Assembly (NCBI RefSeq): GCF_004324755.1
Contig: NZ_SDMQ01000005.1
Location: 62,001 to 126,000 of the forward strand
DNA length: 64,000 nucleotides
Source of the DNA: Propioniciclava sinopodophylli
GTDB taxonomy: Bacteria > Actinomycetota > Actinomycetes > Propionibacteriales > Propionibacteriaceae
Direction: 5' to 3'
Part shown: positions 2,840 through 28,426 of the stretch, piece by piece
How the letters are laid out: each line of letters starts with the position of its first letter
Numbering within the stretch: the first letter of the stretch is position 1
Notes under the pieces: generated by a model
The model's input: the letters and a program-made list of their open reading frames with translations, nothing else
Databases searched by the model: none
Told to the model about the DNA's origin: nothing
Translations under genes and position numbers: made by a program

Positions 2840-3313
2840 GTGGCTGAGCGCGGGACGTTGCTGGTGATCGGGAGCAATCCGCCCGCCGAGACCAGTGGTC
2901 AACGCACCCTGGCCCGCGTCCAGCAGGTTGCGACGATCCTTGACTTCGAGGAAGCCGTCCTCGCCAACCTCTTCGCGCTTCCGACCTACCGTAGTGGCGG
3001 CATCGCTGATCTCGGAAGGAGCCCAGACGGCTGGCTGGACGCCCGCTCCGCTCTTGTCTCTGGCCTCGATGACTGCGACGGCGTGCTCCTGGCGTACGGC
3101 ACCCAGGAGCCCAGCGGTGAGGCCCGGGCTCATCACCGGGAGCAGGTTCGCTGGCTGGACGAGCAGATCGAGGATCGGTCCCTGCCGACTTGGTGGGTTG
3201 GGGGCGCTCCTCGCCACCCCTCGCGGTGGCAGCGGTACACCTGGCGGGAGTTGCCGGGGGTGGAGTTCAGGGAGGCACTGGAGAGGTCGCTCTGCCACGT
3301 GCCCACGGCCTGA
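2840..3313 (+). CDS. DUF1643-like protein
   Basis: This 157-residue soluble protein begins LLVIGSNPPAETSGQRTLAR, followed at about residue 42 by a NLFALPTYR segment. A GVLLAYG strand comes near residue 81 and a WWVGGAPRHPSRW segment near residue 119. The N-x-P start, the NLFA strand, the strand ending in a small residue plus Gly and the GxPRHP motif match DUF1643, a family common in phages and accessory regions with no known reaction. GTG 2840 is taken as the start because TAGGCT (2828-2833) lies 6 nt upstream and TTTGGG at 2806-2811, an arrangement typical of leaderless actinobacterial genes. It is one of the few intact genes in this patch. Confidence 0.65.
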   Translation: MAERGTLLVIGSNPPAETSGQRTLARVQQVATILDFEEAVLANLFALPTYRSGGIADLGRSPDGWLDARSALVSGLDDCDGVLLAYGTQEPSGEARAHHREQVRWLDEQIEDRSLPTWWVGGAPRHPSRWQRYTWRELPGVEFREALERSLCHVPTA

Positions 3314-3764: not shown

Positions 3765-3894
3765 TCTCGCTTCAACCCGTCCAGATAGGAGGCCGGTGGT
3801 CTGGACCGCCGCGAGGGAAGAGGCCCAGGCCGCTCGCCGTCGGTTCGGGCACGCGCGTGCAGTGAAGGCCACGCCACGCTGGTTTAATGGGCTC

Positions 3895-4674
3895 ATGCCC
3901 TGGTTGCCTTTCCGTGATCGCGCCATGAACCCAGACGAAATGGAGGCACTCCGTCTGGTGCTCAGTACGTACCGTGACAGTTCTGGACAGAACCAGACCA
4001 AGATCGGGTCCATGCCGGGCTTCCGGGACTTCGAGCGGGGGCTGGCCAGCGTCATCGGTGGCACCGCAGCCGAGAACAAGGGTGTCTTCGACGTGATCCG
4101 AACAGTAACCCCTGGGCCTGGCTTCGGGGTCTCCTGCAAGATGGCCCGCTTCGCCCCGACAGCACAAGAGGCTGCCTTCGTGGAGTTGAGCAACGCAGCC
4201 GCGAAGTTCCGAGCACACCTGCTGGAACGTCAGATCAACTGGGTCACCGAGCCGCAGTTGGCGGGACCAGCCATCATCGAACTCGTGACTTCTTGGCATC
4301 AGGCGGATGCCGACGCGCTGGGACTCGATCTTCAGGCGAGCAAGTACGCCGTCCTGAGTCGGAGCAGCAACTGGACCGAGTTCCAGTTGTCGGCATACCC
4401 GCTCGATCTCTATGGCTTCAACCCCATCGGGGACATCGAATGGTCGTCTACCAAGAGCCGTGTGGATGGGCACGTCGACATCGGCGGCAGGAAGCACCTT
4501 CTGTGGCAGTGGTACCCGAACAGTGGCGGGCAGTTGAAGTGGTGGCCCCCTCTGGCTTGGGCGGACTGGGCCACCTCACGCTTCACACTGGAAGAAGCCC
4601 CCATCGTCCTTCCCACGGCTCGCGCCAAGGAATACTTCCCTAACCTTTGGCCGGGTGGGTTCACCCCCGCTTGA
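3895..4674 (+). CDS. Unrecognised 259-residue protein, possible restriction endonuclease
   Basis: I chose ATG 3895 because TTTAAT (3883-3888) lies 6 nt upstream, a leaderless layout. An open frame exists from 3796, but its extra residues are Arg-rich and unlikely. The protein is soluble and Trp-rich near its C-terminus. After SGQNQTKIGSMPGFRDFERG comes AENKGVFDVI and, shortly after, GFGVSCKM. An acidic residue followed by S-x-K resembles the active-site order of some Cfr10I/NgoMIV-type endonucleases. That is a weak match, read by eye. Support comes from the partner: its last 14 bases overlap the convergent adenine methylase gene, so the pair could be a restriction-modification system. Confidence 0.5.
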   Translation: MPWLPFRDRAMNPDEMEALRLVLSTYRDSSGQNQTKIGSMPGFRDFERGLASVIGGTAAENKGVFDVIRTVTPGPGFGVSCKMARFAPTAQEAAFVELSNAAAKFRAHLLERQINWVTEPQLAGPAIIELVTSWHQADADALGLDLQASKYAVLSRSSNWTEFQLSAYPLDLYGFNPIGDIEWSSTKSRVDGHVDIGGRKHLLWQWYPNSGGQLKWWPPLAWADWATSRFTLEEAPIVLPTARAKEYFPNLWPGGFTPA

Positions 4675-5500
4675 CCCACAGCACCTCTGAGCGGCTGGCT
4701 CCCTTTTCGACCTTGGGTGCCTTCATCACGATGCGTTCCCAGCCTTCGAGCGACTCGTCATAGAGGGAGTTCGCATACCCGCTCAGGACCACGGGGCCTT
4801 GATGCTGGACGAGAGCCCCCAGCAGTTCGACGTGGTGCTCCACCTCCACCTCTTCGGAGTACATCTTCTGCGTTCGAGTCTCGTGCAGGTACGGAGGGTC
4901 GGCGTAGATCAGCACGTCCCGAGCGTTGAAGCGCCGGACCACGGAGAGCGCGTCCCGGTTCTCGATCTCAGCGTCCGAGAGTCGCCAAGCCAGGGTCCGA
5001 AGTTGATCCGGCACCTTCTGCCAGCGGTGCGACATCCCTCCCGCACGCTGGTGAACACCACGGTTCTTCCAGCCGGTCTTCTTGGCCAGGTCACTGGCGT
5101 GCGCTTGCCAGACACGCACGACGAAACGTCGCGCATCCTCCAGCGGATCACCAGTCGTCACATCGGAGACCGCATACTCGTCCCGGCTCCAAGGGGTGGT
5201 CTCCAACGCCCAGCAAAGGTCCTCAGTCTGGTCCCGGAGAACTTTCCAGAGGTTGACAACCTGGCCGTTTAGGTCGTTGAGGACCTCATGGGGGGAGGGG
5301 GCCTTGGAAAAGAAGACCGCCCCTGAGCCGAAGTACGGTTCGACGTAGTGATAGTGCGGCCCGAACTCCGCTGCGATCCTCCCGGCCAGCGACCACTTGG
5401 CACCGGGGTAGCGTAACGCTGCCGCGCTCCGGCGTACGGCGGGCGTACTCGCTTCAACCAGGGTCATCTGCTTCCAATCCAGCGGGGGTATTGCGGTCAT
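4661..5500 (-). CDS. D12-class adenine-specific DNA methyltransferase (Dam-like)
   Basis: This enzyme would transfer a methyl group from S-adenosylmethionine to N6 of adenine in a specific DNA site. The 279-residue protein has the family's motifs in order: ALRYPGAKW near residue 28 (the FxGxK-like SAM motif), YVEPYFGSGAVFF near residue 53, and the catalytic DPPY near residue 200, followed by HETRTQ. The length is normal for Dam/D12 enzymes. GGAGG lies 9 nt before ATG 5500. It converges on, and overlaps, a possible restriction enzyme gene. It could equally be a lone phage-type methylase, as none of the nearby genes is a confirmed endonuclease. Confidence 0.88.
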   Translation of the reverse strand: MTAIPPLDWKQMTLVEASTPAVRRSAAALRYPGAKWSLAGRIAAEFGPHYHYVEPYFGSGAVFFSKAPSPHEVLNDLNGQVVNLWKVLRDQTEDLCWALETTPWSRDEYAVSDVTTGDPLEDARRFVVRVWQAHASDLAKKTGWKNRGVHQRAGGMSHRWQKVPDQLRTLAWRLSDAEIENRDALSVVRRFNARDVLIYADPPYLHETRTQKMYSEEVEVEHHVELLGALVQHQGPVVLSGYANSLYDESLEGWERIVMKAPKVEKGASRSEVLWVKRG

Positions 5501-5573
5501 GACTGTCCTCCATCTTAGGCTCGCGCCCGGCGCGGTCGTTGATGCCTAGATGCGCGGCGCGTCTTGGCATTTA

Positions 5574-5587
5574 CGAACAACTGTTCG
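5574..5587. promoter_or_regulatory. LexA (SOS) box
   Basis: CGAAC-AACT-GTTCG is a perfect palindrome fitting the Gram-positive/actinobacterial SOS consensus CGAAC-N4-GTTCG. It lies 74 bases before the divergent methylase start at 5500 and about 100 bases before the broken plus-strand gene beginning near 5686. It is AT-richer than its surroundings. It implies DNA-damage control of one or both neighbours. Confidence 0.6.
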
Positions 5588-5685
5588 ATACTGAAGTCAA
5601 GCAGGACCCACTGACAGTCTTGGCAACCGCCCCAGACTCGGGGACAGAGACCGACACCAGACCGGAAGGCCGGCGCACCCAACCC

Positions 5686-6384
5686 ATGCCCACGCTCGAC
5701 CCCGACGATCTACAGCCGCTGGAAGCAGACGGCCTGGCATGGCTCGTCTACCTTGTGGTCGACCCGTCCGTGGAGCCCACCAGCCATCCCCAGGGCGAGG
5801 TCGTCTAGGTCGGTCTCTCGGCCACAGGGCGTGACCTTGCCGAGGCCGGGGACCCTCGCTCGCTTCCTGACTACGAGGTGCCTGCGCGCCAGCGCCTGCA
5901 AGAGATCATCGACCGTGGCCGTACTCCGGTGATCGAGGTCTTGGCTGACCGCCTGCCGCCCGAAGGCCGTGAGGATCGCGCAACGGCCATGAGGGACGCT
6001 CTGGTGCAGGGCTTGTGGCCGCGCCCACTCAACGCGGTCCAGAGCCCGATGCCATCATCCGGCTGCCCGGACTAGTGCTGAGTGCCTCGCTGTCGGCCCG
6101 CCCGACCACGCCCCCGGACCACTTCGGCGTGGTGTATTCCCTCATCGATCTGGCTGATCGCCGCTGGTCCAAGGCTGGCTACGGGGTTGATCCGCCCCGG
6201 GCTGGTCCTTGGTGCCTACCTCATCGAACGTGCAGAGCAGGACCCCGAGGTCCTCCAGCACGTGACCCTCCACGTGAGCACCGACGAGCGCGGCATGGCC
6301 CTCCAGCGGCTCCTAACGGGCACCGCCCTCTCGGTGGGCTTCAGCACGCCCTCCGAGCCCCTGCGCTGGCTGCGCGAGCCATGA
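5686..6384 (+). pseudogene. Broken gene with a GIY-YIG-like N-terminus
   Basis: From ATG 5686 the frame reads MPTLDPDDLQPLEADGLAWL, VYLVVDPS and GEVV, then TAG (5806-5808). It continues VGLSATGRDLAEAG, ARQRLQEIIDRGRTPVIEVL and LVQGLWPRPLNAVQ. If the amber codon replaces a Tyr codon (TAC), the order VYLVVDP...VYVGLS resembles GIY-YIG nuclease modules. The ARLxxI...GxxPxIEVL and GLWPxLxNA features fit this too. A further shift near 6040 leads into IIRLPGLVLSASLSARP, and another near 6185 into RPGLVLGAYLIERAEQDPEV. At least three lesions make it nonfunctional. It lies downstream of the LexA box, so the ancestor may have been SOS-induced. The nuclease label is tentative; the pseudogene call is firmer. 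Confidence 0.5.
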
Positions 6385-6702
6385 GTAGCGCAGCACGTTG
6401 TACTTCGCGTCTTCGGGGATCATGCCCACCAAGCGGGCAGTGCGGATCAGGTCCGACAGGTCTGTGACCATCGTCCACACCCGCGCGACGGCTCGCCAAG
6501 CTTCCGCGTCCTCGGCATCGGGCAGGATGCGGTAGACCTCACGCTCGACCAAGGCCCGGCGCTGTGTGCCCGGGGTGTCGGGGTCGCAGGCGACATCCAG
6601 GAATGACCCACGGGTCAGCACTCGGGCCAGCGCCACGGTCTCGGGATAGACGAGGAGGCCAGGGGAGTGGTCGACAACGCTCAGCCCGCTCCTCCAGGAC
6701 AT
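6313..6702 (-). CDS. Unrecognised 129-residue protein, possibly a fragment
   Basis: The codon pattern and composition look coding (LSVVDHSPGLLVYPETVALA near the N-terminus, then EVYRILPDAEDAEAWRAVAR, then PEDAKYNVLRYSWLAQ). The frame is also open to a TTG at 6747, but ATG 6702 is preferred because an AT-rich palindrome that includes a plausible -10 (CATTAT on the minus strand, 6732-6727) sits 25 nt upstream. The last 30 or so residues look like read-through into the opposing broken gene, so the 3' end may be lost. No membrane segment or catalytic motif is seen. Function unknown. Confidence 0.4.
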   Translation of the reverse strand: MSWRSGLSVVDHSPGLLVYPETVALARVLTRGSFLDVACDPDTPGTQRRALVEREVYRILPDAEDAEAWRAVARVWTMVTDLSDLIRTARLVGMIPEDAKYNVLRYSWLAQPAQGLGGRAEAHREGGAR

Positions 6703-6726
6703 CGAGCACGCACGCCGGCTAATGTC

Positions 6727-6740
6727 ATAATGTGCATTAT
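6727..6740. promoter_or_regulatory. AT-rich palindrome ATAATG-TG-CATTAT
   Basis: Perfect 6-bp arms with a 2-nt spacer lie in otherwise GC-rich DNA. The site overlaps the probable minus-strand -10 of the gene starting at 6702, as expected for a repressor operator. It marks the right edge of the decayed patch; the next gene (VOC protein) ends at 6769. Confidence 0.4.
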
Positions 6741-6768
6741 CGGACAACCGCGGGGTGCGCGTCTGGGG

Positions 6769-28021: not shown

Positions 28022-28426
28022 TCAGACGGCGATGATCTCGACGAGTTCTTCGAGTCCGGCGAAGTCATCGACGTTGTGGGTGTAGAGGCGGGCGCCGTGC
28101 GCGTGTGCGGTTGCCGCGATGAGCAGGTCCATCACCCGGCGGCGTGGTTGGCGGCCGGCGTCGACTACCGCGGCAGCGAGCCTGCCGTAGCTGATGGCAA
28201 CCGCCTCGTCGACGGGCAACGCCTCGAAGTGCTTCTGCAGGACACTGAGCCGGCGCAGGCGTTCGGCGCGCACGGGTGCGGTCTTGGCCACCAGCACCCC
28301 GAACTGGAGTTCGGCCAGGGTGATCGCACTGATGGCCAGTACGCCGGGGATCGGGGCAATGTCCCCGGCGATGATGACGCTGGTGTCGAGGATGGCCCGC
28401 TCGGGAGGTTCGAGCGCCCGGGTCAC
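28022..28426 (-). CDS. vapC: VapC-type PIN-domain toxin
   Basis: This 134-residue PIN-domain RNase is the likely toxin of a type II module. The acidic metal ligands are visible: AILDTSVII near residue 11, ITLAELQFGVL near residue 35, and VMDLLIAATAHAHG near residue 98 (Asp), followed by YTHNVDDF near residue 115. Its ATG overlaps the antitoxin stop by 4 nt, so the pair is translationally coupled. RNA target unknown. Confidence 0.88.
   Translation of the reverse strand: MTRALEPPERAILDTSVIIAGDIAPIPGVLAISAITLAELQFGVLVAKTAPVRAERLRRLSVLQKHFEALPVDEAVAISYGRLAAAVVDAGRQPRRRVMDLLIAATAHAHGARLYTHNVDDFAGLEELVEIIAV

Follow-up and report, generated by a model that had tools for sequence, protein, structure and literature searches.

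A locus beside dif in Propioniciclava sinopodophylli, probably a remnant of an actinobacterial Tn7-like transposon family with a GIY-YIG-derived gene next to tniQ

A perfect LexA-type palindrome lies between a DNA methylase gene and a broken gene in the genome of Propioniciclava sinopodophylli. The locus raises the question of what the broken gene encoded, how it and its neighbours arrived there and whether the palindrome governed either of them. The window is the whole stretch of DNA that was analysed (64,000 nucleotides of contig NZ_SDMQ01000005.1). A preliminary description, made from the sequence and its open reading frames, saw a former damage-induced DNA-processing module. The region is very probably what remains, on the dif side, of a Tn7-like transposon from an actinobacterial family whose attachment site is the chromosomal dif site. 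That it is accessory DNA with a neighbouring DNA methylase had been claimed correctly; this DNA did move as a unit. The features are collected in Table 1.

Table 1. Features of the locus, with positions in the window. The classes of genes and sites are predicted.
Feature	Positions	Strand	Characteristics
Type II restriction endonuclease	3796..4674	+	Open; PADLOC REase_II 3.1e-135; convergent with the methylase gene
D12-class adenine DNA methyltransferase, type II	4661..5500	-	Open; Pfam MethyltransfD12 2.7e-31, PADLOC MTase_II 2.6e-125
Sigma-70-like promoter TTGGCA-17-GATACT	5564..5592	+	Consensus match only
LexA-type SOS box (likely)	5574..5587	no strand	CGAACAACTGTTCG = CGAAC-AACT-GTTCG
Leader including the start codon	5630..5691	+	81-88% DNA identity to three intact relatives
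Pseudogene of the putative GIY-YIG-derived accessory protein	5686..6384	+	TAG at 5806-5808, two frame changes, internal loss
tniQ 3' remnant	6313..6700	-	Homology from about codon 170; 64%, E 8.5e-32; convergent with the pseudogene
Site taken as chromosomal dif	6720..6747	-	11-6-11: TTGTCCGATAA TGCACA TTATGACATTA

The broken gene starts with ATG at 5686, is interrupted by an amber codon, changes frame near 6030-6060 and near 6190-6215 and ends with a stop at 6382-6384. The GIY-YIG resemblance of its first half was seen as xVYLVVDP...X-VG. Its later part had been said to match nothing; it is now explained, since the last third matches the C-terminus of the intact protein of genome G256 (42% over 36 aa, E 0.002; HMM E 0.005; both E values were computed for a set of three sequences). 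The middle piece (6015-6213) gives a weak match (E 0.19 and above).

Among 146 relatives, the first half matched its own genome, the congener G005 and, weakly, G119; the last match (L007, E 5.8e-4) was dropped by inspection, as other plausible frames overlap it. The 262-aa protein of G005 led to Propioniciclava soli (same locus) and to Kocuria carniphila (94% identical). A further search added G256 (60%) and G226, where only an N-terminal stub is left (alignment over 29 residues). The accessory protein was found in 5 of 391 genomes, its own and a weak match in G110 included. A tniQ search (6 of 391 genomes, its own and a weak match in G250 included) led to G065 and G261. The weak matches in G110, G119 and G250 are not counted as members. 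In a sample of 394 genomes of the class, the accessory gene was found only in its own genome; given so few matches in both sets, the family looks rare. Phage and plasmid searches with the broken gene or an intact relative gave no match, nor did one scan of viral contigs with the intact relative.

The five intact relatives (P. soli, K. carniphila, G256, G065 and G261) identify the neighbourhood. In all of them, a TniQ-like gene converges on the accessory gene and overlaps with it. Four have tnsA-tnsB-tnsC-tniQ on one contig; in G065, tnsA, tnsB and part of tnsC are on another contig than tniQ, which is near a contig edge behind another mobile element. TnsA, the DDE transposase TnsB and the AAA+ protein TnsC are all encoded in intact relatives, as judged from profiles in P. 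soli (L010) and L207 (TnsA_like_Actin 4e-54 over the cut-off, TniB, Mu-transpos_C; TnsA of L207 is below the cut-off) and from tblastn matches to Tns genes in L011, L031, L207 and L243. The assignment of TniQ follows from the right position and from a CxxC...CxxH pattern seen by eye; the Pfam TniQ profile gave a weak match to one member (E 0.27), none to four members in one test and none in L206. P. soli and K. carniphila share a 1.5-kb block of 87% identity (L010 5896-7399) that includes the accessory gene and most of tniQ, whereas their TnsA, TnsB and TnsC are 47, 49 and 36% identical. Because this block lies within diverged transposons, the accessory gene and tniQ appear to travel as a module. 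They are also the best conserved genes of G256 (60 and 69%, versus 46-49%); in G065, by contrast, the accessory protein is the least conserved one (26%).

The site of docking is more specific than the terminus at large. Most circular bacterial chromosomes have a dif site, where they are untangled before cell division; dif is a conserved harbour. In four elements, the tnsA open reading frame is preceded, at a distance of 135-164 bp, by a 24-bp imperfect palindrome; in the window, this palindrome (6723-6746) is separated from the tniQ homology by 22 nt. With one mismatch allowed, it was found in 125 of 245 related genomes (reversed pattern: 0), with one match per genome among the matches listed, except for two in the draft genome G008. 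The single copy rules out a transposon end or a TnsB site, and for this reason the 24-mer is taken as the chromosomal dif site, by its sequence and distribution. Its 11-6-11 layout is that of published Acinetobacter dif sites, as given in the available text of PMC10132070. GC skew is noisy along the 126 kb of the window's own contig and was therefore measured at 31 other dif loci, of which the 30 with 4 kb or more on each side were kept. In 28 of these the skew is greater on the XerC side (means +0.023 and -0.022; exceptions: L244 and, barely, L259), so that a single copy, an 11-6-11 palindrome and a switch of replication strand come together at this site.

Both kinds of copies adjoin dif: all five elements with tnsABC and the two remnants (window, G226). 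For G065 this was predicted beforehand, and tnsA, tnsB and tnsC did turn up on its dif contig, ordered as anticipated. The five elements have the same orientation, with tnsA next to the XerD half of dif. The first TGTC beyond +25 nt, taken as the end of the element, begins 37, 38, 38, 38 and 39 nt after the 24-mer (P. soli, G256, G261, K. carniphila and G065, respectively). A first TGTC at 37-39 nt was found in one of 51 element-free dif loci; these are 51 further dif loci from the 125 genomes, without a match to Tn genes, and for 20 of them the sequence covered 1.5 kb per side.

Both ends can be read in two elements. That of P. soli measures 15,595 bp (5-bp duplication CAGTC, ends alike at 15/22 positions) and that of G256 21,889 bp (CGCTA, 19/22). 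A scan that scored every ACA further away than 3 kb ranked these far ends first, with 22.5 and 26.5 versus 17.0 for the runners-up. The same scan gave no good far end with a duplication in G261, so TGT...ACA inverted ends with a 5-bp duplication were found in two of three elements tested. The right ends of K. carniphila, G065 and G261 are placed by TGTC and distance; for G261, an end at +43 had been read by eye, earlier than the reading by the TGTC rule. About 26.2-26.6 kb beyond dif, G261 (L207 joined with L268) has TGTCAG-type repeats in arrays, together with another sequence resembling a right end; this may be a further element in tandem or a far end of complex structure. G147 offers an empty site for comparison with G226: the two share 97% identity over 2.1 kb on one side and 8.7 kb on the other, and also differ by about 600 bp to the left of dif. 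Provided that the 5 bp following the far ACA represent the duplication, the G226 insertion was likewise located 37 nt from the 24-mer.

In the window, everything from 22 nt beside dif (24-bp core 6723-6746) to the middle of tniQ is missing, i.e. the right end, tnsABC and the 5' part of tniQ; the corresponding segment, to about codon 170 of tniQ, measures some 4.6 kb in P. soli. The copy has no full transposition genes, only the 3' remnant of tniQ, and is a remnant rather than a working element. The far end of this copy was not found, and synteny of a glyoxalase gene with G006 gave no help. In the G226 remnant, a stub of the accessory gene is next to dif and the loss starts about 26 nt from it. 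In both remnants the deletion starts 22-26 nt from the dif 24-mer (window 6700-6747; L241 near 2168) and has taken away the right end and tnsABC. Since the two deletions end at nearly the same place, a recurrent, possibly dif-linked deletion is suggested. The insertion of G226 (5.8 kb) also contains a distant homologue of D12-type methylases (27%), about 3.0-3.6 kb beyond dif in L241.

The accessory protein resembles, in its N-terminal region, the GIY-YIG nucleases of the LEM-3/ANKLE1 and PD-T4-3 type (COG3680). Comparison of the family with this type by hhalign gave a probability of 87 (alignment A1) or 90 (with the window piece added) over about the first 80 residues, versus 0.0-1.6% in 30 column shuffles and 0.1% for the tniQ alignment. 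Single members gave 82-85% (three members), 19% (L206) and 1% (L207), and all five together 72%; a plain HMM search against the LEM-3-type set gave E 0.035 or worse. This set was gathered from viral contigs by motif (at least 120 stretches; 121 proteins, 111 of suitable length, 41 non-redundant), and the hhalign match is favoured because the motif is partly shared by the query. No GIY-YIG match to the family was obtained in Pfam, PHROGs or NCBIfam. The Pfam GIY-YIG profile matched two other places in the genome and not the pseudogene, and Pfam LEM-3_GIY-YIG matched nothing in 97 genomes of the order. A structure predicted from three sequences had a pLDDT of 31. With 22 LEM-3-type sequences added, it rose to 48 (block means 63-88 over residues 11-80), and the four top Foldseek matches were PD-T4-3 (probability 0.97-0.98, best E 0.058); this match is partly circular, as the model's alignment contained those 22 sequences. 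A match of the L206 protein to Ntox14 (E 0.0017, below the cut-off) was taken as noise.

The GIY-YIG ancestry proposed earlier for the broken gene therefore stands against its shuffled controls. The amber codon, for which an original Tyr had been supposed, falls in a column where three of the five intact relatives have Tyr and the other two His. Of the motif tyrosines, the first is present in four of the five and the second in three; the two without the second are not among the three closest relatives. The active site does not follow: with the catalytic His, Lys, Glu and Asn taken from the ANKLE1 residues in the available text of PMC10287932, the three closest relatives (L010, L011 and L031, from P. 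soli, K. carniphila and G256) lack His and Lys, and have kept Asn109. The Glu-like position is E88 in two of them and Asn in L031, without a consistently placed Glu; the alignment of the last helix is uncertain, and L206 and L207 were read by eye only. Intact homologues lacking GIY-YIG residues had been named beforehand as the finding that would count against a nuclease, and this is largely what they are. They differ from the LEM-3/ANKLE1 and PD-T4-3 nucleases by the missing His, Lys and well-placed Glu. The accessory protein is most likely GIY-YIG-derived and predicted to be devoid of catalysis.

On the other side of the box, the gene described as dam is one half of a type II restriction-modification pair, a methylase adjacent to its cognate restriction enzyme as classified by sequence. 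The predicted pair is cargo of the transposon remnant. A homologous pair with the same convergent order is carried by the Micrococcus luteus plasmid pCW.Ay (75% for the restriction enzyme, 81% for the methylase), the only plasmid record matching the restriction enzyme. The plasmid methylase homologue (L075 6761-7906), annotated as DUF6262 family, has an extra N-terminal part that the window version lacks; the annotation of its surroundings includes a gene for chloramphenicol efflux and one for TnpB. The cargo comprises type I modification genes in P. soli (likewise, by similarity, in K. carniphila), type III enzymes in G256 and an NOV_C helicase in G065; Hen1, which adjoins the accessory gene of G261, is a candidate cargo only.

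Other neighbours were noted. A DUF1643 protein (2840-3313, Pfam 3.5e-06) is encoded to the left of the restriction enzyme and is possibly further cargo. At 1-1080, the window begins within a gene for a DUF1846 protein, of which it contains the C-terminal part. An 82-aa frame, ribbon-helix-helix-like by eye, is found in P. soli (L010 5521-5769, minus strand) between the accessory gene and a replication-like gene, in a region 76% identical in L031; in the window, the methylase occupies its place.

The box itself is as perfect as first described (CGAAC-N4-GTTCG), and its coordinates do place it between the methylase and the broken gene, in a divergent region. Two perfect boxes are present in the window, versus 0.07 expected from 100 dinucleotide shuffles; the second, at 28300, is within a predicted gene. 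The whole genome (3.07 Mb), which encodes one S24/LexA-type protein, has 13, versus 3 for the reversed pattern. Eight of the 13 are intragenic and five outside predicted genes according to a simple GC3-based gene call, which is crude and misses some genes, e.g. the methylase and restriction genes here; the box at 5574-5587 is outside both by coordinates. Two of the other four extragenic boxes are beside genes presumed, from protein motifs, to be recA and ruvC, and two are beside further genes. A sigma-70-like promoter directed toward the broken gene contains nearly all of the box in its 17-nt spacer (one such promoter found, versus a mean of 0.1 in shuffles). As a consensus palindrome in a promoter-like region, the box is likely a LexA site, at which LexA may act; it is probably genuine, in a setting of decay. 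The segment that holds it aligns with the equivalent position in G256 (L031), where the box is absent. As this place is upstream of the accessory gene, an earlier assignment of the box to the dam side was withdrawn.

Several other readings of the box were weighed. A chance palindrome without function is unlikely. The eight intragenic boxes show that the pattern also arises within genes; from them, and assuming a tenth of the genome to be non-coding, about one extragenic box is expected by chance. Against this stand the five boxes outside predicted genes, two of them at the presumed recA and ruvC, and the position of this one in a promoter-like spacer. If the box is genuine, the module of the preliminary description, with LexA controlling both a GIY-YIG nuclease and a Dam-type methylase, could draw on the promoter around it and on the profile link of the broken gene to GIY-YIG. 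This is nonetheless quite improbable: the active-site residues are not conserved, the partner of the methylase is a restriction enzyme and the region is a Tn7-like transposon remnant. In addition, the proposed check of intact homologues revealed no box (at most one mismatch) upstream of the accessory gene in any of the five relatives; up to two mismatches were allowed in the scan of P. soli and K. carniphila. Compared with the five relatives, the damaged copy of the window is the only one with the LexA-type box, which was therefore not part of the ancestral design. The methylase side gave a similar result. Ten of 28 homologous loci besides its own were scanned (25-44% identity, about 3.8 kb). 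None has a box (at most one mismatch) close upstream and nine have none upstream of the gene in the 3.8 kb; in the tenth, L048, a perfect box precedes the gene by some 400-500 bp.

The box might instead serve the methylase. An SOS response would then raise the methylase and shield newly repaired, unmethylated DNA from the restriction enzyme, a LexA-controlled form of restriction alleviation whose mechanism we infer. A distance of 73 nt separates the box from the start of the methylase frame, which is open; the partner gene is on the opposite strand, with no box (at most one mismatch) before 5329 in the window. However, scanning the minus strand near the box gave no promoter of the type searched for, and the close M. 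luteus plasmid pair has no box (at most one mismatch) in 12.8 kb. This use of the box is somewhat unlikely. An alternative of another kind concerns the docking: the elements could target the terminus region in general and survive preferentially near dif. Terminus regions are generally known to collect mobile DNA, and the TnsE route of Tn7 is reportedly a precedent for such targeting. But this would hardly place TGTC at 37-39 nt in 5/5 elements and in one orientation, versus 1/51 control loci. The fixed distance makes it very improbable and refutes it unless further members break the rule. The preferred reading remains that of a family attached to dif itself.

Other elements share parts of this behaviour. 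The 'res site hunters' Tn5053/Tn402 likewise target a site-specific recombination site, possibly with the recombinase bound; their targets are resolvase res sites, mostly on plasmids, and they are not known to have TnsA. Closer in target are the ISAjo2-type insertion sequences of the IS1202 family, or 'dif site hunters', which, according to the available text of PMC10132070, likewise have a fixed orientation and a fixed distance from dif, a 5-bp duplication and a transposase modelled on TnsB. These are insertion sequences of 1.5 kb without further proteins, located 5 bp from the XerC side, whereas the present elements are large, Tn7-like and cargo-carrying, and lie on the XerD side, at 37-39 nt from the 24-mer. 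As such insertion sequences are known, dif targeting is not new in itself.

Closer in gene content is the second clade of actinobacterial Tn7-like transposons (Benler et al. 2021, PMC8649781). In the available portion of that article, it has the same TnsA-TnsB-TnsC-TniQ core, restriction-modification cargo (the most common and widespread defence cargo there) and the TGT...ACA ends with a 5-bp duplication found here in two members. The present family differs by its attachment site, dif, and by a GIY-YIG-derived gene that is conserved and faces tniQ convergently. Neither GIY-YIG nor, as whole words, dif, XerC and XerD occur in that portion. The Tsy transposon (Faure et al. 2023, PMC10293859, available text) has the same association of a GIY-YIG protein with a target selector; removal of this protein impaired transposition, for which it is not essential. 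Tsy differs in being a tyrosine-recombinase transposon at comM, without a Tn7 core. No report of a Tn7-like element targeting dif was found in the available text of the open-licence literature, including PMC11406308, PMC12907356, PMC8987985, PMC12893667, PMC6464166 and PMC4498929.

The following picture is proposed. Intact members start beside dif with tnsA-tnsB-tnsC-tniQ, followed by the GIY-YIG-derived gene convergent to tniQ and then by cargo, often for defence; on the XerD side, 37-39 nt separate the 24-bp core from the nearest element end. The gene order, the adjacency to dif and, for two elements, both ends with their 5-bp duplications can be read directly from the sequences. The window copy lacks the segment from 22 nt beside dif to mid-tniQ, its accessory gene is broken and its restriction-modification cargo is open. 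TniQ, perhaps with the GIY-derived protein as a partner that is not a nuclease, may recognise dif or a Xer protein bound to it. A more daring version can be put forward tentatively, at somewhat less than even chances: TniQ and a GIY-YIG-derived pseudo-nuclease would select the target as a pair of proteins, recognising either dif itself or XerD bound to it, and would insert the defence-carrying transposons 37-39 nt away in one orientation; in the window copy, the partner gene would have come under LexA control, tying docking to DNA damage.

Beyond the box, the main result is that members of a Tn7-like family, in which tniQ is accompanied by a GIY-YIG-derived gene, are docked at dif. If true, a cargo-carrying transposon docking at dif would be a new route of target selection for the Tn7 superfamily. 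It suggests how restriction-modification genes, of types I, II and III among the copies, reach the terminus, and the accessory protein, as predicted from its sequence, would be a specific case in which a nuclease fold may have found a new use without catalytic activity.
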